64,000 bases of DNA from Diphasiastrum complanatum. Taxonomy: Eukaryota > Streptophyta > Lycopodiopsida > Lycopodiales > Lycopodiaceae. The stretch covers positions 43,863,184 through 43,927,183 of the forward strand of contig CM055095.1 in the NCBI GenBank assembly GCA_029204225.1. The letters run 5' to 3'. Of the stretch, positions 403 through 43,835 are shown piece by piece. The first letter of the stretch is position 1, and each line of letters begins with the position of its first letter. Position numbers and translations under genes: made by a program. Under the pieces are notes generated by a model that saw only the letters and a list, made by a program, of their open reading frames with translations, ran no database searches and was not told the origin of the DNA.

Positions 403-502
403 CTCCTTTGGCAGCTTCAACTCTGGGGAACTCTCTGGAATAAGTTCTACCAGCTGGGGAGGATCCTCAAATGGATCATCAAGTATGTAGGTGTGTTTTA
501 CT
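403..502 (-). CDS. CYP59: CYP59 exon 6
   Basis: A 100-nt exon after acceptor AACATTTGCAG, encoding [20 protein letters not shown] then [13 protein letters not shown], with donor GTGAGT. The [10 protein letters not shown] string is the hallmark of the linker between the PPIase and RRM domains in this family. The next exon is not within positions 1-402. Confidence 0.93.
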
Positions 503-3500
503 CTGCAAATGTTTAAGTTCGTTATGTAACTTGAATATGAATATCTTGAGCCAAACTGCTCACGAGGACACCAAAGATGATTGAAAATAATCTTTTGAAG
601 CTTTCAAAACCTAGGCCAAAAAGGCATTTGAAAGACACATCAACAAGGCTCGTACAAGCTAATCGATCATTGAGGCGACAAGAAATACCAACCTGATATT
701 TTTAAAAGGACGACCTTTCTCATCGACATAGGCTTCATTGATCCGCATAATCGTATCAATTCCCTCGGCAATCTCTCCAAAAATCTAGGTCATAAACTTG
801 AAGTGCTGGGTAATACTGACAAATAAAGAATGTGGCATAGTAATGAAAGAACACGCAAGACAGGTCCCCTCTGATACTCACCGTATGCTTGCCATCCAGA
901 TAATCAATGCCAGGTCTAGCTGTAATGTAGAACTGGAGGACAGCAAATTGTTTGGCCAAGTAAATCAAAGTGCTCATGAAAACAAAATTCTGGAAAGACG
1001 GGTTCTAACAGTAAAAAAATATAACACTCATTTTTCTTCAAGAATTTTAAGGTGTCAAAAGCCACTGCACTATCTTAATCTAATCATACTGATTGGTTGA
1101 AGTGTAAAGCATGCAACAAGTGGAGCGCACAGCTTATTTTCCTTATGAAGTTTACATAAGAAGAACTGCAAATGTTGTAAAATTGTGTTTCAGGACATTG
1201 AGATACAAGAAAATCGCTGCCATTGATCTCTTCTTTCCAAAAAGCTATAGCATCAGCTGATCATTGTTGTAAGTATTAAAATGCTATAAATTTGATGCTT
1301 ATGGAGAACCAGCATGAAAATTTCAATTCTGAAACAGTTCCGATGAGAAAGATGTCAACAAATTTGATAAATATCTTTTGAGCTCCTAATTAAATTTCCC
1401 AATATACAGGATGAAATTGTAAATTTCCCAGACCATGGTTTCCTACTCCACTTACAGAGAAATTCCCAAATCTCGATCTTGCAAATTGTAAATGGGTGTT
1501 GCCTGTAAAAGCGACATCTAATCTCCACAACGGTTCATTTTCACCTGGACAAATATGTGTCATCTAAGTCTCTTCTAAAAGTCTGATTAATTGTGGCCTC
1601 CTATGGAGTCAATAGAGAAAACCCCAGAAGCAGCACGTTCTCACCTCACCTAGCCTTCAAACTGAGCTACATAAATATTCATGCACTAAAACACTAGTAG
1701 CATCTGCAAGACTTAAAACCATAAAGCTCAATAAAAAATAATAACAGCCAACATTTCTGAATTACAAAAAAATTGTTGTTGCAAGATTATTGCTGGGGAT
1801 AATTTCATGAGAAAAAATGTTCGATCATAAGACTTCAATCTCAACAGTATGAATTATTAATGTCCAACAGGCAAACATAAACATTACAGATCAATTTAAA
1901 GTCTTGATAACTTCATGCACCGTATAGCTTAGCTTACAAATGGAATTATGCTAAAATCAGGTAGCAGTGTGAACATCCATCAAAGTTCAAACCAATAAAA
2001 CAATATGCTACAGCCAGTGCTAGCCTTTCTTATGAGTCAAAACGATCCCTAGAAATACGCGTACTTTAAGCTACCGAAGCTTGAGATTAGTTGTGTTTTC
2101 GCATCAACTGATTTGATGCATGACACATGAGAGCCAGATCAGAGGCTACCTACATTCTCAGGCTACAGATGGGACTCAGTATACAGGGCAGAGGCGAGAT
2201 CTACAAGCGGTAGAGGTTCAGGTGGGGTCGCATGTTTATATAGAGAGTCACTACACTAGATTATAGAGTTTATCAAACATGACGAGTATGCACGTTGTAT
2301 ATGGGTCCATCTCATTGGATGCGATATCGGGCTGGCCAGGGATCTCTTTATTGCTGCATGCTACTTTCCTCCAGAGTCCTCTTCTGTAGAGAGCATTGGC
2401 TCTCACTTCACTGATCTCTCCACAGATATTGTCAGATTCTCAGATCGAGGTTCTATACTTCTTACTGGTGATTTTAACGCCAGAATAGCTACGCGACAGG
2501 TAGAGTTCCATGATGCTGATGACCATCTACGCATACAAGCCATTGGTTGTGCTAGCCATTTATAATGGCCTAGCCCATTGGCCTGATTCAAGCAGCTACA
2601 CATGCTACCCTCATAGTGCTGGGCACAGTGTTGTTGACTATCTCATGGGGTCACCATCCCTCATTCCACTGATATCACACTTCGAGGTCATTCCCACTAC
2701 TCTCTCTGATCACTCCTTTCTATCCTTCCATCTGGGTTCTATCCCAACTCCACGAACCTCACCTCGTTCCTTGCTCACCCTTACATCAAGACTCACCAGG
2801 AAGCCCTTGCCTCTTTACTCCATCACTTCCCACACGATAGCACATTAGAGTCACATGCTCGTTTCCTTACCATCTCACTTCATATAGCCGCCTTGGTTTC
2901 CTTTCCATCCACACCCCACTGTCATGCAATCACACCAGCTCATCATGCTCGGCCTCCGTGGTTTGATGATGAATGTCGTTCACTACACCTCCGTGTTACA
3001 CATGCACGTACACGTGATCCACTTATTCTCTCCACTGTTCGTCGATCTCTCCATCGTACACTCCACTACAAAAAGCGCGACCACAAAGAGCAAAAAGGGA
3101 GAAGCCTCTTTGCTTCCCTATTTAGTTCCTCTACTGGCGCCTTTTAACATGCATTTATCTCTCGTGCTCCACCCCCTCTTTTTGACGACCTACATGTCTG
3201 GTCCACCTACGCTACCTCACTCTACACCATACCTATTGACTCACCCATTTCCATCTCCCCCCGTCCCAGTGAATTCACCTTCTTCACCCTTGAAATGGTC
3301 ACTGAGGCCATAAAGAGAATGAAAACCCACCGCACTAGAGACATAGAAGACCTTGAATCAGAACTTCTGATCCATGCTGCAAATCTACTCTCACCCACTC
3401 TAGCCACTCTGCTTAATCATGTTGTCGTCTTGGGCTTCCCCCACTCCTAGTGCACTAATATCATCCATCCCATCCACAAAAATGGTGACCCCATGAATCT

Positions 3501-6500
3501 TGGTAACTACCGTACTATCATGATTGGCCATGTCATAGCGAAGCTTTATGGTACTATACTTCAGTCACGATCAGCTCTGAGGCTGAGACCAGGAAACTAC
3601 ATGCACTGGGCCAGGCTGGCTTTCGTGCTCACCATTCTACCACAGATCATGTCTTCACTCTTCGAGCTATCATTGACGAGGCCATGCATAGGAGACAGAG
3701 GGTTTACTGTTGCTTTGTTGACTTCAAGAAAGCCTTTGATTCTGTTCCACGCTTTCTTCTCATCCAACGACTACATGATCTGGGCTTCTCTACTGATACA
3801 GTTCTAGCTATCATGGCACTTTATGAGCGAGTTCTTGGATGTTTCGGGGAGACATTGGCCTCTTAGAGCATATATGGAGTACCATCGGGGTGAAACAGGG
3901 TTGTTCCCTTTCACCTACACTATTCGGACTATATATTGATGAGCTTGAGAGAGTCACTGAGCAAAGTGGTGATACAGGTTGCCGACTTGGGGATAGTTTG
4001 ATTGCCATTCTCCTATATGCAAATGATGTTGCTTTAGTCTCCTCGACTAGAGACGGGTTACAAAGACAGTAGGACAGTCTTCATGCTTTCTACATTAGAT
4101 GAGGTTTGCGGGTTAACATTAAGAAGACCAAAGTTATGGTCTTCAACACATCTAGAGCTTTCATGCTGCGACAGGAGCTTTTTCTAGATGGACAACCGCT
4201 GGAGATTGTGTCATCCTACACCTATCTTGGGGTTCTTTTCATTGGTCCTATATATGGTATGAGACATGCAACTACAGCCAGACTTGGGAAGGGACATGAC
4301 TTGTTGGTCCAGCTTGAGCATGTTTGCTTTCAGAGATTCATTCGGGACGCCCCGAGTAAGTGTCGGTTCACTGCATTGTATGCTGCAGAGACATGGTGCC
4401 TAGGGCTCACATCTGCGGATTGGGCCAGTATCTTACGCCTCCAGGTCCTTATGCTCTCACGGATGATACGAGCTAAGCCCTCTGTCCCGCACCGGATTAT
4501 CCTAGGAGAATTTGCAGTTCCACCGTCTCATCACATATATAGAATATCTTAGGCTACTTCCCACTAATGCACAGAGATATCCACAGGCAGCACTCATATC
4601 ATCTTAGGACCTTCACAGTCTGGGCTATCACTTGTCATGGTTCTCACAGGCATCACGTCTATTGGATACTTTTGGCATATCTATCACGAACCTCCCATCG
4701 GATACTCACGATTATATCAGACATTTCCTATACAGAGCATACCTTCGTCGCACATGGCAGGGCCAATTAGGGGTTAAACCCGACTACTACAAGACTCATT
4801 TCTTGGAGATGGATGACGTGGGGACCCCAGTTCTACCACGCTATTTAGATTCTGGATTATCCCATGGCCTAAGATTCACACTGGGTCAGCTACGAGTCTC
4901 ATCACATCAGCTTGAGATTGAGATTGTCCATGGTATCCCACGCGAGGAGCCGATCTACTAGTTATGTTCATTGTCTGAGGTGGAATCAAAGGAGCACTTT
5001 TTGTTCAAATGTCCAGTCTACTAAGAGATTAGAGGGAGATACCATTGCCTTTTTAGAGAGACTCCGGTCACATTGTGGTCCCTTACAGCATTTGATGACC
5101 CGAGATGTGTCACACTTATGATCAGAGAGATGTTTTTACTATGACAGGACCTACACCAACCATCTGTTCACCTTGATACACAGCTCCAGATCACATCGTG
5201 TTTCTCCCGCAGGAGATCACGAACAAACCCTAGATTGGATGATAGTGGCGACGACAGTGACCCTGTACTACACAGAGACCAGAGACGGCATACTACTCAT
5301 ATTGCCCATAGAGCCACTACTCAGAGACGACCCCCTTGGAGACGGCAGCAGCATCTATCGAGACCACCTCCAAGCGTTATCCCCATCACATCCTTCTTTC
5401 ATAGCAGCAGTACTTGATGGCACGGAGATATACCATTATCTTATTGGCATCACCTCACATTCATAGTATAATACATTGGCATTTCATTTCCTTTTTGTTA
5501 TGGAGATGTTTCATATGCTCCCATTGTACCACACACTAGACTAGACGGGACGCTTTACGATGTAGAGCTAAGCTCCGTGGCTCCACCATTTTTATGGATG
5601 ATGATCTTACTTGGATATAGGTCGTGATATTAGACATCATCATAATCTTCTCTGGCCAACAATTCTTCGAGAACACTGCAATTTTCTCAAAACTTGGGGC
5701 AATCGGAGCGAAATTATTGCTCTCTTCAAAAAAAAAACCAGTATTTGTTTTTCCTCATACTATAGTAGATCGAGGTCCACATAACCACCAATTTGACTGA
5801 AATGACTAATAGGGTGGTTCATCTTCCAAAAATCTAGATATACCCCAAAAACAACCCCTAATTATAGGGCATTTACTCTTGTTTCCAATCAGTATGCCAA
5901 TGCTCTCAATGTTGATCAGAGACCTCGTGATGGCACTGCTGTGGTTACAGATGGAATCATATGCGGTATAAAAGATGAGACAGTGTTGCCTACAGTCCAT
6001 ACTCCTTGCCACCACCTGCTCACTCCTCTTTCTTGATACCTAAGATCCATACACCTGCCAAGTCATTCGAGCAATACATTTTCTCCTACATCGAGCAAAT
6101 CAAGAACGAATCCACCTCTCTAAGAAAGAAATGGGACAGCTTCAAACGGTCATTCACACTATGGCCGCTGAACGAGAAATCATGTTAGTCCGGATTACTT
6201 ATTGGAGGCAGCAATAAGTAACCAAGGAGAACCTACTAAGATTCAAGAGTTGGAAGAGAAGATAGAGCAACATAAGGCTGAGACAAAATCGTGGGCTTCT
6301 CTGTTCAAGGAGGATGTTAGGGAGGGTACACCATCCTTCAACCGAGTCATTTCGGCCACCATATCCGAAGAGCGAATGCAAGAATACAAAGCCCTGAATA
6401 TTAGGGTCCGCGCAGTTGAAGACACCGACGATCCAATGACTGAAGCAGCCAGCTTTCTCTCAAGCACACTCTCCCATCACTCCGAAGGGTTGGATAGAGC

Positions 6501-9500
6501 TTGGAGAACCAAGAGAGACCCCTCTACACTCATAGTTCGCTTCACGAATCTGGAAGAGAGACAGGCAGCTCTCAAACTGCGGGCCAAGCTTAGAGGTACA
6601 CTTATATTTATGGATGATGATCTCACTCCCATGCAAGTTGTGGATCGGAAAAAAGCATCTATTGAGGCAAAAGCTTTGGGGAAGAGGGTAATTTATCGGG
6701 ATGGCAAGGCCCCTCGGACTAAGCAGTTCGGGGGGTCCTCCTTAAGCATTGCGGTTGAGGCTATGGAACTGCAATGGCATTCACTCCTCGGTTACTACCG
6801 GTGATTTTAGAGACTTTTGTGAGGAGGGTGATCTCTTCCTATTCACAGAGACACATGAGAGTCCAAAAAGAGGTCTACCTGTTGTTACGGGTTTTTGCTG
6901 GTACTCTGCACATCGGCGGTCGACCAGAGCATTGACAGATCGGGGTTCTGGTGGGGTGGCCTGCTTAGTCTGCGACTTCATTCGGCCTTGGGTCTAGTTG
7001 GTGCACACAGGTGAGCGAGCTCGCTATATTTGGATTCAGGTGGACCGGACTTTGATGGGATTGACCCGTGACCTCTTTCTGGCCATTTGTTATTTTCCAC
7101 CAGACACCTCAGTTTTCACAGCAAATGAGGAGTCACCTTACATGGATATCTCTTCAAACATTATCCGATATGAGAAGCGGGGTTATGTTCTTTTAGCTAG
7201 CGACTTTAATGCCAGGACTGGGTCTAGGCAGACAGAGTTCCATAGAGCAGAGGATGATCCACAGCGGATACATGCTTTAGACTGGAATGATCTTGGCCTC
7301 CGGCGACGATCAGCAGATGCAGAGGGTCCAGTTACTGCATACGGAGAGCAGATGCTTCAGTTGGGCGAGGCTCATGGATTGGCCATTTATAATGGCTTAT
7401 TGTAGTGGCCTGATTCAGGTGACTTTACTTGTTTTCCACACAGTGGAGGGAGTAGTGTTGCTGACTATTTCATGGGATTGCCGTCTCTCCTCCCCTACAT
7501 TTCATCTTTCCTGGTTCACCGTACCACTTTGTCTGACCACTCATACCTCTCTCTCTCTCTATTGGCCTTCTTCACACCCCATGTACTAATACCCTAACTC
7601 CTGGCAACAAAACAGTGTACCGCTATCATCCTCAAAACACCCCAAGGTACAGGGAAGCATTATCTGACCTCCTGACTCATTTCCCTTACAACGATACTTT
7701 GACGAACCAATCTCTTTTTCTTCTCTGGACCTTGCATATCGCTGCATCCCTTGCTTTCCCATCTCCACGGCCCAAGCACTTACGACATAATCGACCACAC
7801 AACCCTGGTATGACCACGAGTGTAACCAACTTCATCTGGACTTGATTTACGCACGTTGCCACTTTCCCCATATGGTAAAGGACTTATCCCGTGTATACCG
7901 TAGAACCACCCGAAAAAAGAAAATACTTACAAAATCGGCTAGGGGAAGAAGATGATGGACCTTCTCTTTAGCTCCTCGTCGCGATCATTTTGGCAAAAAT
8001 TCCTCTCACGGGCACCTCCACCCCAGATCACAGATCTTAGCACATGGGTAACCTATGCCACATCGTTGTACACTGTTCCTGACACCCCCTCCACTTCCTA
8101 CACATCCCTACACATGTACTTCTGATATATTCTCTCCAGCCATAGTAGAAGAGGCCATTGACCGATTAAATCTACATAAGGCCAAGGATATTGATGATCT
8201 AGAAGCTGAACTTTTGAAGCAAGCTGCTGACATTCTCACCCTTCCTCTCTCTCCTCTTTAACCGCTCTATCACATATGGTTTCCCCTCACCCTGACCCAC
8301 AAACCTTATCCATCCTATCCATAAAGGCGGTGATCCCATGAAAGCCGACAACTATCGTACCATCATGATCAGTCACCTCTTTGCCAAGGTTTATGGTTCT
8401 ATTCTTCAGTCAGAGATCAGTACAGAGATGGATACCCGAGCACTGCATGTCATAGGTCAGGCAGGTTTCAGACCAGGATATACCACATCAGATCATATTT
8501 TCACCCTGAGATCCATCATTGAGGAAGCTAAGGCCAGGAGAGAGCGTGTATATTGTTGCTTTGTGGATTTCCGCAAGGCCTTTGACTCTATGCTTGTCAG
8601 AATTGAGTTACTAGTCCTACTAGCACTCACACAAAACCAAGCATAAAAATTCAGGTCATAGGAGAATTGAGCAATTGCTCTAGCTCATTGAATTGAATGG
8701 AATAACTGTCGTGGGGCACCAGCCTTCTTAAATAGTTTTTCTAATGATTGATAAAAGCTAATGAGCCTAAAGTAAATAGCAAAAGACAAAAAGCTAATTG
8801 CTATAATTACGACCTATATTGGGTAAACACCCAAGATGAGTTTCTAAGTGATAAAAGCAAATCCTATTCTAGTAGTAGTGCACCCACCTACATGCATAAC
8901 TAAAAAACGAATTTACTATTAATAGTACTGACCCTAAAATATGACTTACTATAAATAGTAATGGCCCCTAAAAATAGCACGCAAGCATGGCCAAACTATC
9001 ATTAAGGGGTGTCAAATAAACATTGAATTCTAACACTCCCCCTTAATGTTTACTTTGTTATCTATTACTCCTAGAAGTTCTCTAAATTCTGAAATTTTTC
9101 TTTGCCAAGACCTTTGGTAAAGATATCTGCAACTTGCTCTTCCGTAGGGCAATAGATACGCTCCACTTCATTACTTTGAATTTTCTCTCTAATGAAGTGT
9201 TGTTGTACTTCAATATGCTTTGTCCTGCTGTGAAAAACTGGATTTTTCGCCAATTTAATACAACTCGGATTGTCGCATTGAAGTACCGTAGGTGAATCTT
9301 GTACCATTTGTAGATCATGTAGAATCCTTCGCAACCATATTGCTTCACATGTTGCACTCGTAGTAGCTCAATATTCTGCCTCTGTAGATGATAAAGCAAT
9401 AGTATGTTGCTTCTTTGAACTCCAAGAGATAGCACCAGAACCAAGACTAAAAATCTAACTTGTAGTAGATCTTCGGTCTTCCGCATCTCCAGCCCAATCA

Positions 9501-20487: not shown

Positions 20488-20545
<58 letters not shown>

Positions 20546-29500: not shown

Positions 29501-32500
29501 ATACTACTACTTTCTCAATAGATACAGTCAGATCCACTTAGATGTAATCTTGTGTTCACTCCCCACCCCACTGCATTGTTTCTCAACCCCAATCTTTCTT
29601 TTCAAGCCCAATCATGCTCCTATTCAATCAAACACATGCCCTGGTAACGATGCCCATATTATCTCTTTCAGAAATCGATGCATGATGCATGGATATGGAT
29701 GCAATCAATCAAACTTGCAACATATGATTCAAGCTAATCGTGTCTATATGATGCACGGTGGTGGGTGTGATTTTTAACTATGACAACATAATACCGCACT
29801 GCAAGATATATATACAAAAAAAAAAATTTAATAAGAAGATAAACATATATACAATGATTGCCACTTCTAGTGCTCAGTCACAAAGGCGCTCTTGCACAAA
29901 TTTGTTCGTGGCGTCTTTGCAGTTGTTTCACTTTGATCTGAGCCCACATCTGTGTCGATGAGAACCGCATCAGCTCCTAAAAACTGGAAGAAAAACATCT
30001 CGTTGAGGGTCTTTCGCTCCTTGGAGTTCCTATCTCGTACTTTGAGATATAGCGCCAGATCAGCTCCTGGTTCCATAGGTTCATTTGGATTATACCACCA
30101 CTTGTTTAACTTTAGGGTTGTTGGTATGTTTTGATACCCCCAAGGGGTAAGCAACCATCTCTGTAACTGGTGGGTATAATGGCCTGCTAGCCGTACTATG
30201 TCATCTCTATGGTGGGTGCTCTTTAAGGTGCATCTCGTATTGCATATTCTGAATCTTGGCATCTGTCTTCTTCTCTTCATGTTTTTGTCGCCAAGTCTTG
30301 GCTTCTTTGCTCAAGCTTTCAATTTCATTCTGTTGTTTGGTATTTTGACTCTTCAGCTTCCTTATGTCTTCCTTATCTGTCTGCAATTCTTTTTTCGCTT
30401 GTTCTCGCTCTTTAGACAGTAGTGCAACTAGTGCGTTTCTATCTGGCATGAATGAAGCAGATGGTCTTGCTCCCTCCATATCTGTCAACCTGTAAATAAC
30501 TCTAGTTGCTAGGGTTAGGCGGAATGCATTAACCCGAGTGTAATGTCATTAGCAAAATGCTTGAAGCAAGTTTTAGCTAATTCTTGATGCATTAAAGCTT
30601 GTAGCTGCTCTATCAGTTGTGGTTTCTTTTCTGTGACCCATGTTGTCAGCTCCTTAATCCATCTGATCCCATATAAGGTCTCGTTCTTAAGTAGTACCCA
30701 AAGTTCTGTTGTCGTGTTAATGTTCTCAATATTATTTCTTCTCGGTGTACATCTGTGGTAATGATCCTTGTGGTAAGCTATATTGGCAATGTTATCTGCT
30801 CTAGAATTCTCGCATCTCGGCACATGCATCCATTCTACATGCAGTATCTGTTGTACTAGGCTTCTTATGGTTGAAGCGTAAGCCTTTGGTATCTTATCTT
30901 TAATTTGACATTCTCCAATCATTCCTTTGATAAGTAATTCGGAATCTCCACGTATTCGTAATCATTGAATGTTTTCCCCCATTTTTAACGTCATTTGCAG
31001 GCCCATCACAAGGCCCTTATACTCAGCCGTATTATTGGTGAAATGCGCTCCTAGATAAACACCAAGGCTAGCTATTATAAATCTTTCGGGATGTCCCAGT
31101 ATCGCTCCTATAGCACCCTCCCAGGCTTTATGTCTACAAGCCTCGTCAACTGATAGTATGTACATGGTTTTTTCAAAGGAGATCTCCATTTACAAACAAG
31201 AGAAAGTTATATACATTAACAAGAATTTTTTTTTTTTTCCACATAGAGATTTTCAAGGGTATAGCCTCCCCCAATAGGGCCCTCCAAAAAAGTTCGTGAT
31301 TCTCAATCTTAGTCTTCGTGGTACTGTCCTCTTGGCAGGCGTGACGTACATGTACACTGTGTTCTTTGTGGGGATAGCAGTCGCCAAATCTTCCAGAACC
31401 TGTTCATCGGTTATGTCGATGTACATAAAAGGGCTATCTATTTCATAATGTGATCGACAAGGCTCCTCATACTCGCAGTCCACTACAATGCGCTTGATCA
31501 ATTTTTTAATCCACAAAAAGGTCAGGTAGGAAACATCATTGGCGCTATCCCATACCCATAGTTCCATGGACTGTCTATGTAAATCAGCAACTGTTTCATC
31601 CCAAGTAAAACTTTGTGCATATAGATTCAGCAACTGTGTCAGGGGGTGAAGTATCTCCTGCTCTGTCTCGAAGTTGTATACCCAGCTGCTGTGAAGAAGA
31701 GTTGTTGTGCTATTGGTCCATTCTATCAACTATTTCTCAACGAGGAGGGGTTACAATCTATTGCCACTATTTCTTTACAGAGATAGGTACTAAAAGTTGC
31801 GTAATTAAAAAGAAAACTATTTTACACTATACAAAAAGGCTCCTCCTTCACGTATGATAGGTCTTTAGCTTGTTGATGTTGACTAGCTTATTGAATGGTT
31901 TCCCGCTCAATTCTGCCAGCTGGGCTGTGTTGTTATCATAAAGATTTTGTATAACGTATGGGCCATTCCACTTGCGCACAAACTTTTGCGGCATAAAGTC
32001 GTGTCTAGTGTCATAGTGCAATATAACTGCCCAGTCTTGAAGGTATAATTCGGGATTTTTAGGCCACTGCAAATCGTAGGGTAGGTAACTCAATTTCTAT
32101 TGGCAACACGCATTCATGCCCATATACTAAAAGAACGGGGTGTGATTGGTACTGGTCTTGTGAGTAACATTGTAGCCCACAAGGCTGCATACAGTTTCTT
32201 GTCCCAATCTCGACGGTTGTCAGAGACCATTTTTCTAAGGATGGCCAATATTTGTTTGTTGGTACTTTCAGCTTGTCCATTGGCTTGTGGGTTATAGGGT
32301 GTACTCTTTCTATGCTTGATCAGTAACTGGTCTGTCAATGCTTTGATGGTTTTGTTTAGGAAGTGCGTCCCCCTATCTGACACTAGTTCTTTTGGGGCTC
32401 CAAACCTCCCTATGACCTGTTCTAGCAAAAACCATGCAGTCTCTTTCGCATTGTCTTTGGCAACGGCCCTTGCTTCTGCCCACTTCGCAAAATAATCTGT

Positions 32501-35500
32501 GGCAATTATGCTGTAATGTTTTCGTCGAGAGGACGCAAGATGTACTGGTCCAATAAAGTCTAACCCCCACTTTTCAAAGGGCAACTGTGCTTGTATCGCA
32601 ATCAGTGCTCGTGTTCTATTTACATTCGGCTCCACGCGTTGGCAAATATCTCAACTCTTTGCATAGGTATAGGAATCTTTAAAAACCGTGGGCCACTAGT
32701 AACCAGCCCTTAACACTTTTTGGGCTTGTCAGTAGTCCGGCAAAGTGTCCTCCACAAGCGGAGTCGTGACACTCTTCTAATATGAACATGGCCTCATTTG
32801 GGGTTACGTAGCATCGAAAAAGGCCTTCCACTCCTTTTCAATATAAAACACCACCAATTAGTGCGAAGCGTAAGGCTTGTAGTCGTATTTTCCTTTTTTC
32901 CTGTGGTGTCATTGACTCTGGTAATTCTAATGTAGACAAGTAAGTTGCCAGAGTACTGTACCATTCTGGGATCATGGGGATATCTACTTTCAGTAAGTCC
33001 TTCACATGGTCGTTCTCCCAATCATCACTGTCATTGGGTAGGCCTCCTATCTCGCACATGCAATCATTTAAGCCTTGTAATCAAGGGGGTTTGCTCTGTA
33101 GTTCATAGTCAAATTCTTGTAATGACAGTATCCACTTTATAAGTCGTTCTGGTGGTTCTAGTCTGTTTAGTAACATGGTGACCGTTGGTATAATTTAGTT
33201 CCGCTGCTTCCTTAGGTTCATCTTCTATGTTGGATGAATCTTGACTTGTGTCAGTATCAAAAATCTCCTCCCATTCTGTGGAGGGTATGGGGGCTCGTTC
33301 AAATTGGGGTAATTCAGGGTAACCATCTACTACTGTTCGCTCTTTCCCTCGTCCAAACACTAAAACTCCGGCTGGTATGTCCACAATGCAGGTTACTTGA
33401 CTTCCTTCGTACATCCTCATAACATAAAAGTCCACAGGGATTGTCTTGCCTGCTAGAGTGATGGGAATGTCTCGTAATTCCCCTTCAGGCTTGATTACCG
33501 CATTGTTAGCCAACTTCCACAAGTCCTCAGGTATGTGAAAATATGTCATACACCCAAATACTCGAAAGTGGTCCACTTTGGGCATGTTGTTGTTGTACAC
33601 TTCTTCAAGCTTGATCCCTTCAACCGCTTTGGTTGGGCTTCTATTCAATAGAAAAATAGCAACTGCTACTACTTTTGTCAAAAGGAATTCGGCAAACTTT
33701 TTGCCTTGAGCATGCTCCTCGGACACTCAACAATAGACCTTTTTTCCGCTCAGCCATGCTATTTTGTTGCAATGTATGTGGAGCTACAAACTCTCCCCTT
33801 ATCATACATGCATTGCAAGGATCTTTGGACACCTCAGAAATGTATTCACCACTTGCATTTGACTTGAGAGTTTTTAGCTTCTTTGTTGTGTGATTCACCA
33901 CCAAAGCTTTCCATTGTTTGAAGTATATAATTGCTTTAAATTTCTGTCTAAGGAAATAGACTCACACCTTTCGTGAAAAATCATCTACAAAGGTTATAAA
34001 GTAGTAAGTACACCCCCTCTGCATAATTGGTCTGCATGGGACTGCACAAATCTGAATGCACAAGCTTAAGAATGCCCTTGGCCTTGGTAGCATTTCCCTT
34101 TGAAAATCTTTGCCTTTGTTATTTTCCTAGTGCACAAGCCTCACATGCATCTGAAGAAGACTTAATGCCAAGAAGACCTACTACCACATTTGCTTGTTTA
34201 TTACTTGCAAACTTTGATGGCTCAAATCACCATACCTTTTGTGCCAAAGCTTGTCTTGAGAATCTTTTGCTAACAAAGCCTCTTACTAGGAATGGTTGTG
34301 TAAAGCTTGTAAAGACCCCCTTTTTGCATTCCCTTGGTTGCCACCTTGAAACTCTGATCTTCATCTTACATGAAAACAAGTAGATTCGTCAAACTCCACT
34401 AGCATGTTCTATTGGGTAGTGGCACCAACAGATAGCAAGTTCTTGACCAATCTTGGTAGATGTAACACACTTTCCTTCACCTCACTTGATAATGGCTTTA
34501 CAGGAACTGTTGCTTTGCCCCTCACCTCATGTGTAGAATTGTCTCTAAATCAAACCTATTAACCATCATGTGTCTCTTCATAGCTATTGAACCGATGTCT
34601 ATGAGGTGTCATATGCTTTGAGACTCCATAAACATCCACCAAACGTGCATTATCTTGATAGTTAAATGATAAGCTATTCGAGACAATGGAAACAATAATC
34701 ATGTCACTTACAGTCGTGCCCACGAAGCTCCGACCCTGTATTATATCGTCAGAGGGCCTATCTGAACCCATAAACCAGTTATGATTATGAGGGTTGGGGT
34801 CCTCATGGCATTATTTCTAATTAGTGGTTAGAGGCCTAAAACTCGTGATGATGAATTTGCATGGTGCTGATGTGGCCCAGTTAGACAGTTAAGGTCTCCC
34901 AGTGAGGTGTCACAACTCACTCCTAGTTGAGGAGAAGCCTTGGAGGGTATAGCCATAGGCTTCTTCTTGGGATATGCTTGATTGTGGGATTTGTAGCTAC
35001 ATGCCTGGACTGATACCTCTCCCTGATATTGAGAAATTGCTTGTGGTCCATAGCTCGGGGGCTCTGATCGATCTAGGTTTGGTTGGGTTAAATTTTTTCA
35101 CCATCCTTTTCTTTGGTTTCTCTTGTTTCAACACCCTAGGCCTTGATCCTCGGAGGAGGATTTGAAACTTATTGTCTCTCCATCTTAGGCAAGTTGGTCC
35201 ATAAGGTCTTTGACCTTAGTATGTGATCATTGATTTTAGCACCTGCCTCCATTTTGAGAGTATGTAACCTATTTTGCAAATAAATGAGCCTGGCTGAATC
35301 CATTTCTCATACATAGACCTGAGAATACTCCAAGCTTTTATTGCATCCCTTGCATTGCAGATGTGAGGAATAATGTTGTCTTTGACAAAAAGATTAATAA
35401 CCCTATGTGCCTTTTGTCCCCTACCTATCTAGTACTTCAATTTAAGTTAAATGTAGGTACAGGCTCTCTACTTGTAACTATCTCCCAACAATTCTTGTCC

Positions 35501-38461
35501 ATCAAGATGTTAGCCATCTTGAACTTCCACAACAGTTAGTGCCATCTACTATGCTTGACTCAATCAAGAGACTGGCACATCATGTTGTGGTTCCTATTCT
35601 TTTTCTTGCTCCAGTGGGTTGATCTTGGTTTTACTCTTGGAGTATCTTTACTTCCATACTAGCTCAGCCATTAAAGCTTGAGAGACTTAGCTATGGAAAA
35701 CACCAAATACAAAGGAAATTGCTTAAGCACTCTTGCAAAGCCAAAACTTAGAGAGAATGAATTGCTAGTAAGAGAGGGGAGGGCGCGCAGTGGCAACCAT
35801 ATAATTGAGCTACTTGACCAAGTGGACCACCTGCATTAACTTTCTTAAGTTACAAATAGGAGGCCCCATGTATTTTTAAATAACATGCCCCAAGATTAAT
35901 GTACAACTTACAATAATATTAGTGCTTAGCCAAAGGGGTAAAACAAGCATTGCTCTTTAACAACTTTTCCATTAGACAATTATGAATCACTTTAAACATT
36001 AGAATTGAGATTTGTCTTATGAAACTATGACTTATGAAATAGAAACTATTTTACTTTCATGCAAGATCTATGATGATGATTTGACCCAACCTGTATTGGG
36101 TTGGAAAGGGACTAACCACTTATTGGTAAGTGTGCAGGTGTTCTGAGGAGTACTTGATGAGTAAGAATTAAGATTTCATGGCTTGCAATAATATGAAAAA
36201 GAATTGATGATGCTTTAACGAAACCCATAAATCAAAGTCTAATTTTCTAAAGATTTAGGAATCAAAACAACAAATATAAGCAATATAATTCAAATGCTTA
36301 AATATAGACAATAATCACGAATCAAATTTCATAATATCATATAATGAAGTCAGTGAAATGTGATCACAAGTCACAACTGAGTCGTGATAAGTGACAATCA
36401 TAGTACATACAACATACAATCATCAATGTTTGAATAGTAAATAGTCATTGAGCCAATTAGCACACCAATCGACGCAAGCAACAAGCCATCAAAGGATGAT
36501 AGTCCTTCATTTGCAGACGAGACTCATATCGTTAAATAGTGGGAAGCTTGATTTACCTTACAACTACCAAGCCAAATATTGCTTATGCACAATTGGGATT
36601 GCAAGCCAATTTATGAGTAAACCTAATGAATCACAATGAAAGGCAGCCAAGCAAATCCTATAGTATGTGAGAAGAGACAATAACCTATGCGATTGATGAT
36701 GGTGATCTTCAGCTGGAAGGTTATACAAATCTAAGTTGGGCAGGTGATAAAGACAATCGAAGATTGATGACACAAGCTATTGCTTTAGCCTAGGTTTAGG
36801 GGCCATTTCTTAATGCAGCAAGAAGTAACCTACTATTGCTTTGTCATCCATGGAAGCTAAGTACAATGTGTCTACAAGGATAGCATTTGAAGCTATCTAG
36901 TTATGACATGTTAGGTACCCAACCCCTGGGTCCCACACCTAACTTGAAACTGGACATTGGACTGGGCCTAATGACTTGACCAACTGACTCGTGGACCACA
37001 TGGATGCCACTTGTCAACTGGTCAAGTCAATAGGCCCAATCCAATGTCCGGTTTCGTGTGGGACCCAAGGGGCTGGGTTCCTAACATTTCACCTACTTGC
37101 TAATATGCAAATCGCTCAAGTAGGACCTACATTGCTACATTGTGATAATAAAAATTTGTATTAAGCTTGCAAGAAATCTAGTCTACGATGCAAGGAGAAA
37201 GCATAAAAAGGTGGACCAGAACTTGATACAAGAGAAAGTGCACGATGGTGAGATTGAGCTAACATATTACGACACCAACAATCATATTGGTAAAGACAAG
37301 TTTAACATTGTTAGGTATCAACTTAAATAAAATTGCCATTAAGGGAGGTTGTTGAAGAGCAATGCCTCCTTTATCCCTTTAACTAAGCACTAACATTATT
37401 GTAAGTAGCATGTCTAATCATGGGTCATGTTATTTGTAAATACATGGGGCCCCCTATTTGTAACTTAAAAAAGTTAGTGCCAGTGGCCCGCTTAGCCAAG
37501 TAGCTCAATCATATGGTTGCCGCTTATGGATGTACATGAGGTGCTAACGTCACAGAGGATTAGAGGGACTCACACCCTCCCCTCTTACTAGCAATTCATT
37601 CTCTCTTCTAAGTTTTGGTGTTGTTAGGTGCTTAAGCAAATCTAGTATTGAAGTTAAGATACTCCATAGCTAAGTCTTGCAATTCATCAAATGTCTTGAG
37701 CACAGGAGTGATTGTTATTAGTCACTAGACTATGGTCATTGCTAGAAAGCTTGTTAGAAAGCTAGAAAAGTCTAGTTTCTGATGCAATTTGTTTCAAAAC
37801 ATTTGGATGTGCCAATCAAAAGCTATAGCCTTTTGAATGAGGGTAGGTAGGGCACCTAAACCTGTATGGACACTTTTGGTTTGATCCATAAAAACTTAGA
37901 AAAAAGCTTGCCAATCTTGTCTATTTGAGATCTGATTTTTTGAGATCATAGCCACATAGTTTCATGCAATTCAATTGTATTTGAGTCATTTGTGGATGTT
38001 TTTGGGTGCTTTTGTGTGCTTGAGTCAAGTTTGCTAACCAAGGGCCTAATCAACCCAATCATCGTCGTGCAACACAGGTACATGAATGGCAAGAAAAGGA
38101 CATAGATAGTGAAATATGGCACGAAGCAGCTTTCATTCTCATCACTAGCTAATATGGAGTCAAGAGCTTCTAGAGGCAACCTTGTAATAGATAATTTAAG
38201 AATTTTGAAGCATCAATTTGACAATGCAATGTCTTTGTGTCTTTTCTTAAAAAGAGTGCATTTTTGCATTGATAGACTAAATATTGCTCATATTTACAGT
38301 GGTGATGGTTTTCATGTTCAACAATTTTTACAATTCACATCCTAACCAAACTGACATAAAATATTGAAAATTATCAAGGGTGATGCCCAAATATCATAAT
38401 CTTTCTAAGGTATATAGACCATACAAATGGGTGCGTGTGAATGTGTTTTGCATGGGTAAGG

Positions 38462-38499
<38 letters not shown>

Positions 38500-40994
38500 A
38501 CGCGCACGCGCGCGCGCGTATTTGTACATAGAGAAATTGAAGCAAACAAACTTCATAAGCAAGAAGGGCCTTACTTGTACATAGAGTCCCCACCAGAACC
38601 TGTACCAGTTGGATCGCCTGTTTGCATGATAAAGTCTTTCTGAACTAAATGGAAGAGGCAATTGTTATAATATTTCATCCTGCACCAACAGAGACAAGCA
38701 TTATTGATATTATGCCAATTATTAGCCTGCTTCTCGTAATTCATTTCTTTTCGTTTGGTTGTTGGGTACTTGGTCAAACAATAATATCTGTTGTGATTTA
38801 TTTGTTGTATAGGTTACTACCTCCATGTTAGGAGTTCCAAAGTTTGTTGTTATACAAGATGGATCAAAAGAATTCACTTCTTATTCTTTCTATAGATTTT
38901 TTATATATGTTTGGTTCCTAGTAGGATGGCAATTTTTTCTTCACTACCATGCATCTCTTTTTCTCTATTATCTTGCTTCAAAAACTTGCATAACGATTTG
39001 TTTATAGAACATGTTTTTTAAATTGCTTTTTGGTCTACATGTGCTAGAGCAGTGAGGATTGATTCTCCTAAGAGCTCTATGTAGTCTCTCCTTGTCAAAG
39101 TCTTGAGAATAAGTTTTGCATGGCTTGATCTAGGAGGTAGACAAGTTGGATGCATGGATTGTAAAATCACACCAAATCTGCAATGGTAAAATTAGATCTT
39201 CGATAGTTTGTCACTAGAAGTAGTATTAATGCATGAGTATTATGGATATAGTTATGCATGTGGATCTAGTTATGCATATGTCTCTACCTACTCATGTGAT
39301 TATGTTTAAGGGTTTTATGTCATGTGATTGGGTAGAGCGTTATCATCACACATTTTGGCTCTTTTCAAAAAAAGTTTGTCCCTATACTTCATGGCGAGGT
39401 TATGTGCTAAGTTGTTACAAAGAATCACCGCTATCATGGCTTCTCCATATGATTGTGGGCAACAACTTGTACAACAGCTCCTATTGTATACCTGTTTGTA
39501 TTGTAACATGCATAAACAACTATGATTACATGGTAATTGGTTGGGATTATCCTCTTAAGAAGGAAGTCTAGCAACACATGGTGTAATAGTATGAGCAACA
39601 CATGGTGCAATAGTATGAGCAACAACAATGTATAGACAACATGGAGAACAAAGAAAGTGAAGAAAAAACACCAAACAAGACTCGATAGACTAATGAAGTT
39701 GACTGACAAGCTACGGACAATACAAACTTTTACCAATACAAAATCTGATGATTGGTGTACCTACAAGTCACAAAGAATCAACTAACAACACAAGGCATAG
39801 TACCTTGGATCAACACTTGGAAGATGTTCAAAGAAACTTTTTGAGATGGTGTTTTCTTATGAATGTGAAAAGGAGGAAACCTTTAAGGATTGGACATATG
39901 TCTAATGCATGTCCTAGTGCATTATATCAAAGTTTTAGGTTTGTGTAAGATAATTCATTAATTGCTAGTAGGTAACGTCAAAGTATTTTATATCTAGCTT
40001 GTAGAATCTGCCCCAATGTGGTCACAAGCAGATATAGTTGATTGCACATCTTGAAGAAGGCTATGGCAAAGAAGTTGGAAACAACTTGAGAGCCTCGATT
40101 AGATGGTAATAAAGAACCTTCAAAATATGGGTGCTTCGAATTACCCTTAACACGAGAAGAAACAAAAAAAGTCCAAGTAGCTAATAATTCAAAAATGCTA
40201 CTTATGTCTTTGTATGTAAAATGGACAACTTGCAATAAGTGCCTCTCCAGGTAACTCCAAAATAACTTGGTTTAGCTTTCTACATAATTGAAGAGCTATT
40301 GCATTAGCCTTAAGTTTAGCGGCTACATTGTGTAACTCTTTTAGCTGATTGATGGTAGTCATTCAACAAGATGGATGGAAAATTGTGCCACAAGGCTGCC
40401 AGATGTAACATCCATCTATAGATATCCGTTTTTGGGAGTCAAAATATAAGTATTGTAAGTCTTGAACCTAATTGGTTTTGTGATTGAATTCAAGTCTTGG
40501 ATAAGAAGTAGATGTATTATCTTGTCATAGTTCATGTTTCTTTCTTGTTGGGATTCTTCTTTATGGGAAGACGGCTTACATTTTGTTCCTTTTGCTTTGT
40601 CAAAAAATACTTCAAGAGGAACAAATGAAAGAACTTTGAAAAGGTCAAAAGGCATGTAAATTTGTGAAACTAACTAGCCTCAAATCAACCAATTGCCAAT
40701 TATGATGCTTATACGTGACCTACTTTGCTATCTACAACAATTTCTCAGGCTTATGGCCTCACCTTGATCATCTCCTTTGTTGCAATTAGTAAATATAAAC
40801 TTAACCAAGTCTCATGCCTTCGTTCACATTCTAGATTTAAATGATCATCTTAAAAATCAGAGCAAATTTTATGAATGTGCAGTTTCGTAGACTTACTTGC
40901 AAAGCTTCAGAAAATTCTTGCAAGTAAGTGGGCAAAGTTCTGTATGCAAATCAATCACAAAATCCCCCAAGCTTGTGTTTATCATTATCGCCAT
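403..40994 (-). CDS. CYP59: CYP59/PPIL4-type nuclear cyclophilin, N-terminal 188 codons, six exons, 3' part off the window
   Basis: Join of six minus-strand exons: 40994-40897, 38679-38575, 28880-28763, 932-882, 784-693 and 502-403 (98, 105, 118, 51, 92 and 100 nt). All introns are GT-AG and the reading frame passes through every junction (phases 2,2,0,0,2). Landmarks in order are [100 protein letters not shown] and [16 protein letters not shown]. These are the multidomain cyclophilin family represented by Arabidopsis CYP59 and animal PPIL4, nuclear proteins linked to RNA polymerase II and RNA processing (family knowledge). The PPIase core is complete; the RRM, CCHC knuckle and charged tail expected next would lie left of position 1. 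The ATG at 40994 gives the family's usual N-terminal length. Activity and expression are not shown. Confidence 0.93.
693..784 (-). CDS. CYP59: CYP59 exon 5
   Basis: A 92-nt exon after acceptor ATGACCTAG, encoding [19 protein letters not shown] then [11 protein letters not shown] and the first two bases of Arg, with donor GTTGGT. This is the end of the PPIase fold. The Arg codon is completed in exon 6. Confidence 0.93.
882..932 (-). CDS. CYP59: CYP59 exon 4
   Basis: A 51-nt, 17-codon exon between acceptor GTCCTCCAG and donor GTGAGT, encoding [17 protein letters not shown]. It supplies the DGKH motif with the His126 equivalent; Trp121 of cyclophilin A is Tyr, as is common in this subfamily. 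It is separated from exon 3 by about 27.8 kb but from exon 5 by only 97 bp. Confidence 0.92.
2122..5466 (+). pseudogene. LINE A ORF2 remnant (endonuclease-reverse transcriptase)
   Basis: ORF2 in three frames. The APE endonuclease part has a GDFNAR-like string near 2467 ([10 protein letters not shown]) and a SDHSFLSF string near 2706. The RT part has [14 protein letters not shown] near 3710, [20 protein letters not shown] near 3888 and the catalytic box [10 protein letters not shown] near 4011, where the first catalytic Asp of YADD is Asn. It continues with [15 protein letters not shown] and SYTYLGVLF, then the thumb and C-terminal domain. At least five in-frame stops or shifts make it nonfunctional. 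Plant L1 elements usually show QGDPLSP at the RT motif, so KQGCSLSP suggests another LINE clade (inference). Confidence 0.88.
2122..5540 (+). mobile_element. LINE A, 5'-truncated non-LTR retrotransposon
   Basis: Begins inside the ORF2 endonuclease at a THES motif and continues through endonuclease, reverse transcriptase and C-terminal region to a 3' UTR ending near 5540. The 3' UTR wording (ATGGAGATGTTTCATATGC) matches the 3' UTR of the copy ending at 27.36 kb. It lies antisense in CYP59 intron 3. Stops and frameshifts occur throughout. The typical TTTC tail is missing because another LINE fragment begins directly after it. Confidence 0.9.
5543..5630 (+). pseudogene. LINE ORF1 fragment
   Basis: About 85 bp translate as [19 protein letters not shown] followed by QVV, matching [19 protein letters not shown] in the ORF1 of LINE B. 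It abuts the 3' UTR of LINE A with no tail between, so it is a rearranged scrap of another copy. The stretch 5631-5990 beyond it has no recognisable content. Confidence 0.75.
6060..6750 (+). pseudogene. LINE B ORF1 (coiled-coil, L1 ORF1p-like RNA-binding protein)
   Basis: The open part 6202-6804 gives about 180 residues of ORF1; a stop at 6186 separates an N-terminal coiled-coil region. It carries a leucine/glutamate heptad region ([18 protein letters not shown]), then [55 protein letters not shown]. This domain order (coiled coil then an RRM-like and a C-terminal basic region) is that of LINE ORF1 nucleic-acid chaperones. The same signature occurs at 43152-43592, 16636-16840 and 27480-27900 in this window. 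Its frame runs into the ORF2 start region at 6749. Confidence 0.8.
6749..8594 (+). pseudogene. LINE B ORF2, 5' part (APE endonuclease and start of RT)
   Basis: Starts at [12 protein letters not shown], the APE N-terminal motif. FTETHES supplies the catalytic Glu, [10 protein letters not shown] is the Asp/Asn motif (Gly of GDFNA changed to Ser), and TLSDHSYL is the final Asp-His motif. RT begins with [16 protein letters not shown] near 8321, [14 protein letters not shown] and [12 protein letters not shown] near 8555. Stops near 6995 and 7403 and frameshifts after 7405 interrupt it. The Copia LTR cuts it at 8594. Confidence 0.88.
8595..9035 (-). repeat. Copia-1 3' LTR
   Basis: Begins TGTCAGAATTGAG and ends TTCTAACA on the plus strand, a TG...CA structure on the coding strand. 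It has lost about 20 bp near its left edge compared with the other LTR. Confidence 0.93.
9036..9050 (-). other. Copia-1 polypurine tract
   Basis: The minus strand reads TTAAGGGGGAG immediately before the 3' LTR, the expected position for plus-strand priming. Confidence 0.8.
9071..13217 (-). pseudogene. Copia-1 gag-pol polyprotein, inactivated
   Basis: Reading from 13217: gag with [20 protein letters not shown]; an in-frame stop at about 12472; CCHC knuckle [14 protein letters not shown] near 12430; protease [11 protein letters not shown] near 12235; integrase HHCC ([18 protein letters not shown]) and core ([32 protein letters not shown]); then RT with [54 protein letters not shown]. The RT catalytic YVDD reads YVVD near 9980. 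RNase H and the terminal [12 protein letters not shown] follow. Frameshifts occur near 11677, 11300 and 10050, with more at 10919-10871 and 9500-9330. The gag-PR-IN-RT-RH order is diagnostic of Copia. Inactive by the catalytic change as well as the breaks. Confidence 0.94.
13651..13663 (-). other. Copia-1 primer binding site (initiator tRNA-Met type)
   Basis: The minus strand reads TGGTATCAGATCG directly after the 5' LTR, matching the 3' end complement of plant initiator tRNA-Met used by most Copia elements (TGGTATCAGAGC) with one early mismatch. Confidence 0.88.
13664..14127 (-). repeat. Copia-1 5' LTR
   Basis: Begins TGTAAGAATTTGTG and ends TTTCTAACA on the plus strand; 464 bp and colinear with 8595-9035 throughout. 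Confidence 0.94.
14128..15890 (+). pseudogene. LINE B ORF2, 3' part (RT palm, thumb, C-terminal zinc motif)
   Basis: Resumes the RT at [14 protein letters not shown], then [33 protein letters not shown] with the catalytic YADD intact, and [16 protein letters not shown] stop at 14553 separates the thumb region ([44 protein letters not shown]). The C-terminal region has a CX2C...HX4C motif ([19 protein letters not shown]) near 15395-15450, interrupted by a frameshift and a stop, then a Ser/Arg/Gln-rich tail. Apart from the Copia insertion it is one of the better preserved RTs here. Confidence 0.9.
16056..17338 (+). mobile_element. LINE C, internally deleted copy
   Basis: Starts in the CT tract that ends LINE B. 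A Pro-rich 5' portion (16070-16530) is followed by ORF1 coiled coil ([45 protein letters not shown]). At about 16840 the sequence passes without a stop into the ORF2 endonuclease ([14 protein letters not shown], then [12 protein letters not shown] near 17100). The ORF1 C-terminus and the ORF2 N-terminus are missing. It ends abruptly at 17338 against an inverted LINE tail. Confidence 0.85.
16636..17230 (+). pseudogene. LINE C ORF1-ORF2 fusion reading frame
   Basis: One open frame joins about 70 residues of ORF1 coiled coil to about 130 residues of APE endonuclease, including [35 protein letters not shown] and ACYFPPESS. The frame then shifts before the GDFNAR motif ([15 protein letters not shown] is readable in another frame near 17213). 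A natural LINE never has these parts adjacent, so this is the product of an internal deletion of about 450 bp judged against LINE B. Confidence 0.75.
17339..17408 (-). mobile_element. Inverted LINE 3'-end scrap
   Basis: On the minus strand this reads GGCATGGAAAAAACATTAATAAAG then a TTTC repeat and a CT repeat, the same 3' terminus as the LINE copies ending at 27.36 and 43.97 kb. It is the only LINE piece I see on the minus strand in the intron array, and only about 70 bp long. It lies between LINE C and LINE D. Confidence 0.85.
17409..20491 (+). mobile_element. LINE D, ORF2-containing copy with internal deletion
   Basis: Begins near the ORF2 start and runs to a 3' UTR ending in GACATTAATATATTC followed by TATTC repeats and the CT tract at 20492. 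A deletion at about 18550 removes the region between endonuclease and RT motif FRKAFDSVP. Oriented antisense to CYP59. Confidence 0.9.
17422..20265 (+). pseudogene. LINE D ORF2 remnant
   Basis: APE endonuclease: [60 protein letters not shown] (intact motif), [12 protein letters not shown] after a deletion: [20 protein letters not shown] near 18560, a frame change, [20 protein letters not shown] near 18747, [13 protein letters not shown] near 18868 (catalytic residues intact), [49 protein letters not shown]. The C-terminal CX2C..HX4C region follows near 19858-19920. Frameshifts near 17990, 18700, 19320 and 19680 prevent translation. Confidence 0.88.
20492..20541 (+). repeat. CT dinucleotide microsatellite between LINE D and LINE E
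   Basis: An uninterrupted run of TC repeats of about 50 bp following the LINE D tail and directly preceding a LINE-type 5' end (TTATCGCTATTTCTCTCCCA). Confidence 0.95.
22056..24210 (-). mobile_element. Gypsy-1 fragment (Ty3/Gypsy pol)
   Basis: Minus-strand pol without LTRs: protease remnant ([14 protein letters not shown], where DTG has become DTR), RT N-terminus ([63 protein letters not shown]), RT-RNase H ([32 protein letters not shown]) and the integrase zinc-finger start ([17 protein letters not shown]). The YVDD region at about 23060 is readable only with frameshifts. Both ends are truncated; the left junction falls inside LINE E. Confidence 0.9.
22480..24206 (-). pseudogene. Gypsy-1 protease-RT-RNase H remnant
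   Basis: Open pieces at 23257-23655 (133 codons) and 22486-22926 (147 codons) with a degenerate stretch between them carry the RT fingers/palm and the RT-RNase H connection. [10 protein letters not shown] and [11 protein letters not shown] identify Ty3/Gypsy rather than Copia. The protease active site is DTR in place of DTG or DSG. It reads in the same direction as CYP59 but lies in its intron. Confidence 0.85.
26391..26403 (-). other. Copia-2 primer binding site
   Basis: Minus strand TGGTATCAGAGCC, an exact match to the plant initiator tRNA-Met complement. Confidence 0.9.
26404..27044 (-). repeat. Copia-2 5' LTR
   Basis: On the minus strand it starts TGTTGGAATATAAATGG and ends ATTTCCTACA, immediately followed by a PBS. 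It is 641 bp. Positions 26600-26690 contain about four diverged copies of a unit reading ACTTGACTATTGGCTATCC. Confidence 0.85.
27363..28065 (+). mobile_element. LINE G, 3'-truncated copy with ORF1 remnant
   Basis: Begins in the CT-rich tail of the preceding LINE. Degenerate ORF1 text is visible: [20 protein letters not shown] near 27495, [16 protein letters not shown] near 27560, and FLDDDLT then MQV near 27853. A start of ORF2 resembling WNCNG follows near 28035 (the text reads LCGNMMGFG or similar). It breaks off near 28065, so it lacks its 3' end, which is unusual for LINEs and implies a later deletion. Confidence 0.72.
28763..28880 (-). CDS. CYP59: CYP59 exon 3
   Basis: Acceptor TATCAGCAG precedes the exon, which completes the split Lys codon and then encodes 39 residues: [20 protein letters not shown], then [19 protein letters not shown]. 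It ends in CAG followed by GTTTCG, a weak but canonical GT donor. The final Gln corresponds to Gln111 of cyclophilin A. Confidence 0.94.
29867..30488 (-). pseudogene. Coiled-coil ORF at the 3' end of Gypsy-2
   Basis: Two overlapping frames give an N-terminal heptad-rich segment ([40 protein letters not shown]) and, after a frameshift near 30250, a C-terminal segment ([53 protein letters not shown]). I do not recognise it. It might be an env-position accessory ORF or a transduced host sequence. Confidence 0.5.
30515..31189 (-). pseudogene. Archaeal-type RNase H domain of Gypsy-2
   Basis: Two open pieces (30962-31189 and 30515-30922) separated by one stop near 30962. ILSVDEACR with [13 protein letters not shown] matches the beta-hairpin of RNase HI with the first Asp; [14 protein letters not shown] carries the Glu; [14 protein letters not shown] carries the second Asp; and [14 protein letters not shown] the last Asp. 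The NNTAEYKGL and RADNIAN strings are those of plant and archaeal RNase H-like proteins, different from the Gypsy RNase H. The enzyme would remove RNA from RNA:DNA hybrids in reverse transcription. A C-terminal extension of about 80 residues follows. Confidence 0.85.
31253..31729 (-). pseudogene. Unknown ORF between integrase and archaeal-type RNase H of Gypsy-2
   Basis: An open frame of 158 codons on the element's coding strand. It is rich in Trp, Tyr and acidic residues ([20 protein letters not shown]) and ends [15 protein letters not shown] with a basic stretch ([12 protein letters not shown]) before it. I do not recognise the family. Its placement, strand and lack of stops suggest it belongs to the element rather than the host, but function is unknown. 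Confidence 0.5.
31848..33060 (-). pseudogene. Gypsy-2 integrase
   Basis: The N-terminal HHCC region is split over 32640-32800 ([15 protein letters not shown]). The core 32114-32635 has [19 protein letters not shown] with the first Asp, [13 protein letters not shown] with the second Asp, and [17 protein letters not shown] with the catalytic Glu, so D,D-35-E is present. The C-terminal domain 31848-32093 has [20 protein letters not shown]. Frameshifts at about 32110 and 32060 and stops near 32640-32830 break the frame. The core is among the best kept integrase sequences in the window. Confidence 0.88.
33109..33726 (-). pseudogene. Chimeric open frame: Copia integrase joined to Gypsy protease
   Basis: The 205-codon frame starts with Copia integrase C-terminal text ([40 protein letters not shown]) and switches at about 33515 to Gypsy protease-like text ([20 protein letters not shown], then [13 protein letters not shown]) and an acidic tail. 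The join is in frame. It most likely marks the point where one element inserted in or recombined with the other; no evidence shows it is expressed. Confidence 0.75.
33516..35990 (-). mobile_element. Copia-3, degenerate Copia element, gag to integrase with 5' LTR
   Basis: Minus-strand order: LTR-like 35690-35986, gag text ([20 protein letters not shown] near 35500, [19 protein letters not shown] near 35370), protease remnant ([13 protein letters not shown] near 34610), integrase zinc and core ([17 protein letters not shown] near 33850, AERKKG near 33745) and the integrase C-terminus down to 33515. Many stops are present. RT and the 3' LTR are missing on this side because Gypsy-2 follows. Confidence 0.8.
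35690..35986 (-). repeat. Copia-3 5' LTR-like segment
   Basis: The minus strand starts TGTTAAAGAGCAATGC and is similar over its length to the plus-strand segment at 37349-37640. Shared landmarks are the TAAGCACTAA..ATTATTGTAAGT text, CATGTTATTT.TAAATACATGGGGCC, and ACTAGCAATTCATTCTCTC. The inner boundary is uncertain because no PBS was found. Confidence 0.75.
36909..37086. mobile_element. Foldback MITE inside Copia-4 RNase H
   Basis: 178 bp starting TGTTAGGTACCCAACCCC and ending GGGGCTGGGTTCCTAACA. Each arm is about 80 bp and pairs with the other with roughly a dozen mismatches or gaps; the loop is about a dozen bases. The arms share GGGTCCCACAC, GGACATTGGA and TGACTTGACCA. It interrupts a Copia coding sequence that reads on both sides. 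I found no clear target duplication, and it has no coding capacity. Confidence 0.92.
37349..37640 (+). repeat. Copia-4 3' LTR
   Basis: Starts TGTTGAAGAGCAATGCC right after a polypurine run and is the inverted relative of 35690-35986. The right edge is uncertain; similarity fades near 37690. Confidence 0.72.
38462..38521. repeat. 60-bp alternating purine-pyrimidine tract (TG then CG), Z-DNA candidate
   Basis: TG repeats pass into CACGCG and CGCGCG text without breaking purine-pyrimidine alternation. It begins about 53 bp inside intron 2, just downstream of the exon 2 donor. Confidence 0.95.
38575..38679 (-). CDS. CYP59: CYP59 exon 2
   Basis: Acceptor TTGGTGCAG is followed by G-ATG-AAA and the exon runs 105 nt to TAC-AA with a GTAAGG donor. 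It encodes [17 protein letters not shown] then [18 protein letters not shown]. The position of the catalytic Arg55 of cyclophilin A (in FHRI) is Leu here (FHLV); Phe60 and Gln63 equivalents are kept. Confidence 0.95.
38680..40896 (-). other. CYP59 intron 1, 2.2 kb
   Basis: Runs from the exon 1 donor GTAAGT at 40896 to the exon 2 acceptor at 38680. Short ORFs exist but none resembles a known protein convincingly, and I see no intact transposon. Confidence 0.85.
40897..40994 (-). CDS. CYP59: CYP59 exon 1 (coding part)
   Basis: Starts at ATG 40994 and encodes 32 codons plus two bases, ending at TGC-AA before a GTAAGT donor. The protein begins [19 protein letters not shown], the beta-1/beta-2 region of the cyclophilin fold, followed by [12 protein letters not shown]. 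The family homologue starts at the equivalent residue, which supports this start. A purine-rich stretch precedes the ATG, and a 5' UTR intron acceptor is possible near 41071. Confidence 0.93.
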
Positions 40995-43626: not shown

Positions 43627-43835
43627 AAATTGCATAACTTAAAATTTCAGATTCTTCTCCCTCTCCTACGCGAGATGTTTGAGCTACAGTCATTTATTTC
43701 CTCTCCTGCGTGAGAGATGAGCTTTTTAACAAATTGCATAACTTAAAATTTCATATTCTTCTCCCTCTCCTACGCGAGATGTTTGAGCTACAGTCATTTA
43801 TTTCCTCTCCTGCATGAGAGATGAGCTTTTTTACA
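43627..43835 (+). repeat. 104-bp tandem duplication in LINE H 3' UTR
   Basis: Two copies with starts at about 43627 and 43731, both running from AATTGCATAACTTAAAATTT to GAGAGATGAGC; they differ at only a few positions. Confidence 0.95.

Follow-up and report, generated by a model that had tools for sequence, protein, structure and literature searches.

Six coding exons of a CYP59/PPIL4-type gene are found in the window (the whole 64,000-nt stretch of DNA analysed here), all on the minus strand and spread over about 40 kb. The coding part of exon 1 (40897..40994, 98 nt) starts with the ATG at 40994, encodes residues 1-32 plus two bases of codon 33 and is followed by the donor GTAAGT. After the 2217-bp intron 1 (38680..40896, phase 2) comes exon 2 (38575..38679, 105 nt, donor GTAAGG), and after the 9694-bp intron 2 (28881..38574, phase 2) exon 3 (28763..28880, 118 nt, donor GTTTCG). 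Intron 3 (933..28762, phase 0) has a length of 27830 bp. The last three exons lie close together: exon 4 (882..932, 51 nt, donor GTGAGT), intron 4 (785..881, 97 bp, phase 0), exon 5 (693..784, 92 nt, donor GTTGGT), intron 5 (503..692, 190 bp, phase 2) and exon 6 (403..502, 100 nt), which carries the end of the PPIase domain and the start of the linker. GT...AG borders are present at all five introns, and the phases 2, 2, 0, 0 and 2 are mutually compatible. The spliced exons give 564 nt encoding 188 aa with no stop and no frameshift; they make up 1.4% of the gene span within the window. A further donor (GTGAGT) directly after position 403 points to a continuation of the gene beyond the window. 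An earlier note, made from the sequence alone, had proposed six minus-strand exons with the junctions 38575/28880 and 28763/932. Its coordinates proved to be exact, including those of the two junctions.

Upstream of the ATG the frame stays open for 24 codons (40995-41073), and a possible acceptor AG is located at 41073-41072. This arrangement suggests an intron in the 5' UTR.

Profile search of the window ORFs

A family profile was derived from 114 relatives with lengths of 400 to 660 aa, with the matching Diphasiastrum protein excluded. It was searched against every window ORF of 15 codons or more (2,706 in all) and, as a null set, against 60,495 ORFs obtained by 20 first-order Markov shuffles. 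The six exons were the six top-scoring ORFs among the 2,706, with 77.0 bits (exon 3), 75.8 bits (exon 2), 58.2 bits (exon 1), 55.8 bits (exon 5), 55.5 bits (exon 6) and 21.7 bits (exon 4), as compared to 9.1 bits for the best shuffled ORF. The matches run in the order given in the earlier note and cover profile positions 1-191 without a gap. Two non-exon matches (15.0 and 11.4 bits) also scored above the shuffles. Both fall on CCHC fingers, in two gag regions of copia type, and a second cyclophilin copy inside the window was rejected on this ground. All remaining matches in the window reached at most 9.1 bits, no more than the shuffles yield.

Identity of the encoded protein

The spliced 188 aa match the cyclophilin family PF00160 at residues 4-159 (profile positions 3-157 of 159, 153.3 bits, E 8.1e-45). 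The six exons thus encode a full N-terminal PPIase domain and the first part of the linker, as the earlier note had read them. The closest solved relative is human PPIL4 (239.1 bits, E 3.5e-70, aligned over residues 1-182), and the next solved cyclophilin scores 141.5 bits, which places the protein closer to the CYP59/PPIL4 branch than to other cyclophilins. The public protein O6H91_04G079400 (P0121, 528 aa, a hypothetical protein of Diphasiastrum complanatum) is identical to the spliced exons over its residues 1-188 (188/188), and the next-best public protein among the matches listed is 82% identical. O6H91_04G079400 is placed on a 78.7-Mb contig and contains PF00160 and PF00076 (RRM); the RRM follows the PPIase domain and is itself encoded outside the window. 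The identity makes D. complanatum (taxid 34168, Lycopodiaceae) the most likely source of the window, although the protein of a close congener might be identical as well. From this identity the window locus appears to be the locus of O6H91_04G079400, and the full protein is predicted to consist of the PPIase domain, a linker, the RRM and a charged tail. AtCYP59 has the PPIase domain, RRM and charged tail in common with it (PMC7641896).

The tree contained 22 proteins chosen out of 236, with a midpoint root for drawing only and seven inner branches open. One group of 18 rows (99/99) takes in the full clubmoss protein together with all named land plants and the alga Closterium; a mammal, a fish, a fungus and one further row are outside this group. 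Its neighbour in the tree is P0122, a placement that is uncertain (93/90). The CYP59/PPIL4 identity proposed in the earlier note is therefore supported by the domain match, by the best solved relative and by the tree.

The same note expected that an annotation would report only transposons here. This is not the case: the six exons are already joined in the public model, which shows no difference from the window gene over the comparable part. The family profile finds every exon singly (21.7-77 bits), and the idea of a gene missed by annotation was dropped in view of the identical public protein. It was concluded that this is a real, correctly read and already annotated gene of known kind. The case shows that raw sequence can suffice for reading a scattered gene correctly, and the public model already has it.

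The exons could be real and still be joined in another way, with additional exons hidden in the long intervals, a different choice of first exon or an independent short transcript of exons 4-6. Introns 2 and 3 are long enough for unseen exons, and the in-frame upstream extension with its possible acceptor, which suggests a 5' UTR intron, also leaves room for this. Against it, the six exons fill the profile from 1 to 191 gap-free, the next-ranked matches are the two copia gag fingers followed by matches at shuffle level (at most 9.1 bits), and the annotated protein joins exactly these six exons. We regard a different joining as rather unlikely.

Conservation and residue 44

At columns conserved in at least 95% of the 114 relatives, the clubmoss protein agrees at 110 of 115. 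All five deviations are exchanges among I, L and V. The pattern fits a gene under constraint, as judged from the alignment. The number of deviations is higher than the median of one among the relatives, 8 of which (8/114) deviate as much or more. Residue 44, at the position of the cyclophilin A catalytic arginine, is Leu (codon 38646-38648, exon 2, minus strand); among the relatives this position is Thr in 100/114 and Leu in 0/114. Tyr118 of the clubmoss protein is at the Trp121 position. Human PPIL4 likewise has no Arg at the Arg55 position and a Tyr at the Trp121 position, although its residue at the Arg55 position is Asn and not Leu (PMC2911226). In the alignment, Leu44 is a departure from a wholly typical family member, in a family that is without that arginine anyway.

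The five deviations and Leu44 would also suit a decayed or unexpressed CYP59 duplicate that has been kept open by chance while a working copy resides elsewhere. The cluster of O6H91_04G079400 has four member sequences (listed sources ncbi, uniref and nr only), which may be isoforms or may include a near-identical copy. Such a duplicate is very unlikely in our estimate: the 564 nt contain no stop or frameshift, every splice border is intact over 40 kb, the changes at conserved columns are all conservative, and among the named rows listed (best 120 of 1,541 and best 120 of 5,267) there is one Diphasiastrum cluster only. Short open frames that resemble cyclophilin and were assembled by chance can be excluded, with a probability close to zero: the exons are merely 51-118 nt each, but they score 21.7 bits or more where 20 shuffles reach 9.1 bits at best, and their spliced product is identical to a public protein.

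Retroelements in the introns and flanks

A Pfam scan was carried out on 60 of the 66 stop-to-stop window ORFs of at least 110 aa (six ORFs were left out). Intron 3 contains relics of LINE-like elements, an LTR element of the copia type and a relic with RNase H and integrase matches. The copia LTR retrotransposon (8605..14134, minus strand) has LTRs at 8605-9042 and 13694-14134, with 426 of 437 aligned bases equal (K2P 0.026). Its gag, integrase and reverse transcriptase are in copia order, the reverse transcriptase being split over two frames; a target-site duplication was not seen by eye at this element. A LINE-like reverse transcriptase fragment on the plus strand (8296..8646) matches RVT_1 profile positions 2-94 with 28.3 bits, just below the 29.6 cut-off, and a continuation on the same strand (14119..14556) matches positions 79-192 with 69.4 bits. 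Because the first ORF ends at 8646 and the RVT_1 match resumes in the ORF from 14119, the copia element seems to have been inserted into a LINE-like reverse transcriptase on the plus strand. Intron 3 also carries a further RVT_1 piece (3507-3863), a second LINE-like relic on the plus strand (17410..19319, endonuclease PF03372 and RVT_1), and an RNase H match together with a sub-threshold integrase zinc-binding match (21989-22956).

Integrase and RNase H-like relics are found in intron 2, so that transposon sequence is present in both of the long introns 2 and 3. The Pfam matches at 8296, 21989, 33112 and 59027 are each under their own cut-off. A PF06810 match at 30210-30545 was also below the cut-off and was taken as chance. 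In intron 1 (2.2 kb, between exons 1 and 2) no protein-level transposon trace was seen, but this intron has a single ORF of at least 110 aa (39230-39571), which is without a Pfam match. The statement that exons 1, 2 and 3 each sit alone in transposon-rich DNA holds for exon 3. No RNA gene or tRNA was found within the introns at the thresholds used.

Intron 2 has an inverted repeat at 35683-37677, with arms at 35683-35964 and 37348-37677 (78-84% alike) around a near-palindrome at 36904-37091. It looks like a foldback or MITE-type element. Upstream of the gene there is a second copia-type relic on the plus strand (57375-60794) with gag, CCHC, integrase, SH3-like and reverse transcriptase pieces, and a further gag piece at 60396-60791. 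Two tandem duplications of two copies each are also located upstream of the gene, at 45122-45490 (187 bp, 98% matches) and at 43627-43835 (104 bp, 97% matches).

Discussion

The window exons are, with high probability, the 5' portion of a CYP59/PPIL4 orthologue from the clubmoss, whose long introns have been filled by retroelements and would be removed by GT-AG splicing. The gene would be transcribed leftward, and its remainder probably lies just beyond the window, where the public protein predicts it to be intact. Retroelements presumably entered introns 2 and 3 and persisted there, which would have lengthened the gene. They may have been kept because insertions away from splice sites cost little. 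The long introns would most likely be removed as ordinary GT-AG introns. The donors of introns 3 and 5 (GTTTCG and GTTGGT) deviate from the usual GTAAGT, and we count this against the explanation.

The family function has been described in PMC4991786, PMC7641896 and PMC10208982. Relatives, which have a PPIase domain and an RRM, are described as acting on the polymerase II tail and on pre-mRNA; polymerase II is an interaction partner of both AtCYP59 and the fission-yeast protein Rct1, and elongation and splicing depend on SIG-7, the relative in C. elegans (PMC4991786). During catalytic activation of the spliceosome, human PPIL4 is bound to the exiting intron (PMC10208982). By homology, the clubmoss protein most likely works as its relatives do. 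It would then be a nuclear cyclophilin with a role in co-transcriptional splicing, where it would contact the tail of RNA polymerase II as well as pre-mRNA.

The spread of the gene is due to introns of 2.2, 9.7 and 27.8 kb, the two longest of which contain retroelement remains. The earlier note treated this structure as surprising, which was overstated: introns longer than 10 kb and full of transposons have been described in several vascular-plant lineages (PMC9477723, PMC9023351, PMC9364684). Ceratopteris has 17,745 introns longer than 10 kb (PMC9477723), Cycas has a mean of about 30.8 kb per intron (PMC9023351), and gymnosperms have many introns longer than 20 kb (PMC9364684). Long, repeat-rich introns between short exons are likewise the pattern in Ceratopteris, Cycas and conifers (PMC9477723, PMC9023351, PMC9364684, PMC4108047). 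Since such introns are well known from ferns, cycads and conifers, the structure of the clubmoss gene is ordinary in kind. It differs from the short average of another lycophyte, Isoetes sinensis, with a mean intron of 426 bp (PMC10541799), and it provides a clear-cut case, from a homosporous clubmoss, of long introns filled with transposons. Among the literature matches listed there is no account of this gene's structure in clubmosses, a result from which little can be concluded about the published literature.

For AtCYP59 a zinc knuckle has been described (PMC7641896), whereas the public clubmoss model is without one. We therefore filed the gene under the PPIase+RRM family and not under the knuckle-bearing CYP59 layout, since the knuckle leaves no trace in P0121, possibly owing to a missed exon. 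The pattern CX2CX4HX4C after the RRM was looked for in 183 retrieved proteins with a length of 400 aa or more (the best matches listed, which is no survey of all plants) and was found in 178 of them; in a smaller set it was present in 112 of 115 proteins. The five of the 183 best matches in which the knuckle was not found are Diphasiastrum P0121, Selaginella P0209, the mammal P0128, Taxus P0245 and P0250. P0128 is the one animal protein among those fetched at this length, and the Taxus model P0245 diverges immediately after the RRM. Both named lycophyte CYP59-type proteins (P0121 and P0209) are without the knuckle, while the printed fern, liverwort and moss proteins have it. The absence in lycophytes could be a loss in the lineage, or it could reflect an exon missed in the gene models (for P0121, beyond the window). 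It is a small testable point on a conserved RNA-processing factor. A more elaborate reading is a lycophyte CYP59 variant that has lost the knuckle, carries Leu at the catalytic-arginine position and has its own supply set by the splicing efficiency of intron 3 (27.8 kb, donor GTTTCG). We consider this a very long shot; if it were true, a splicing factor would sense long-intron splicing via its own gene.
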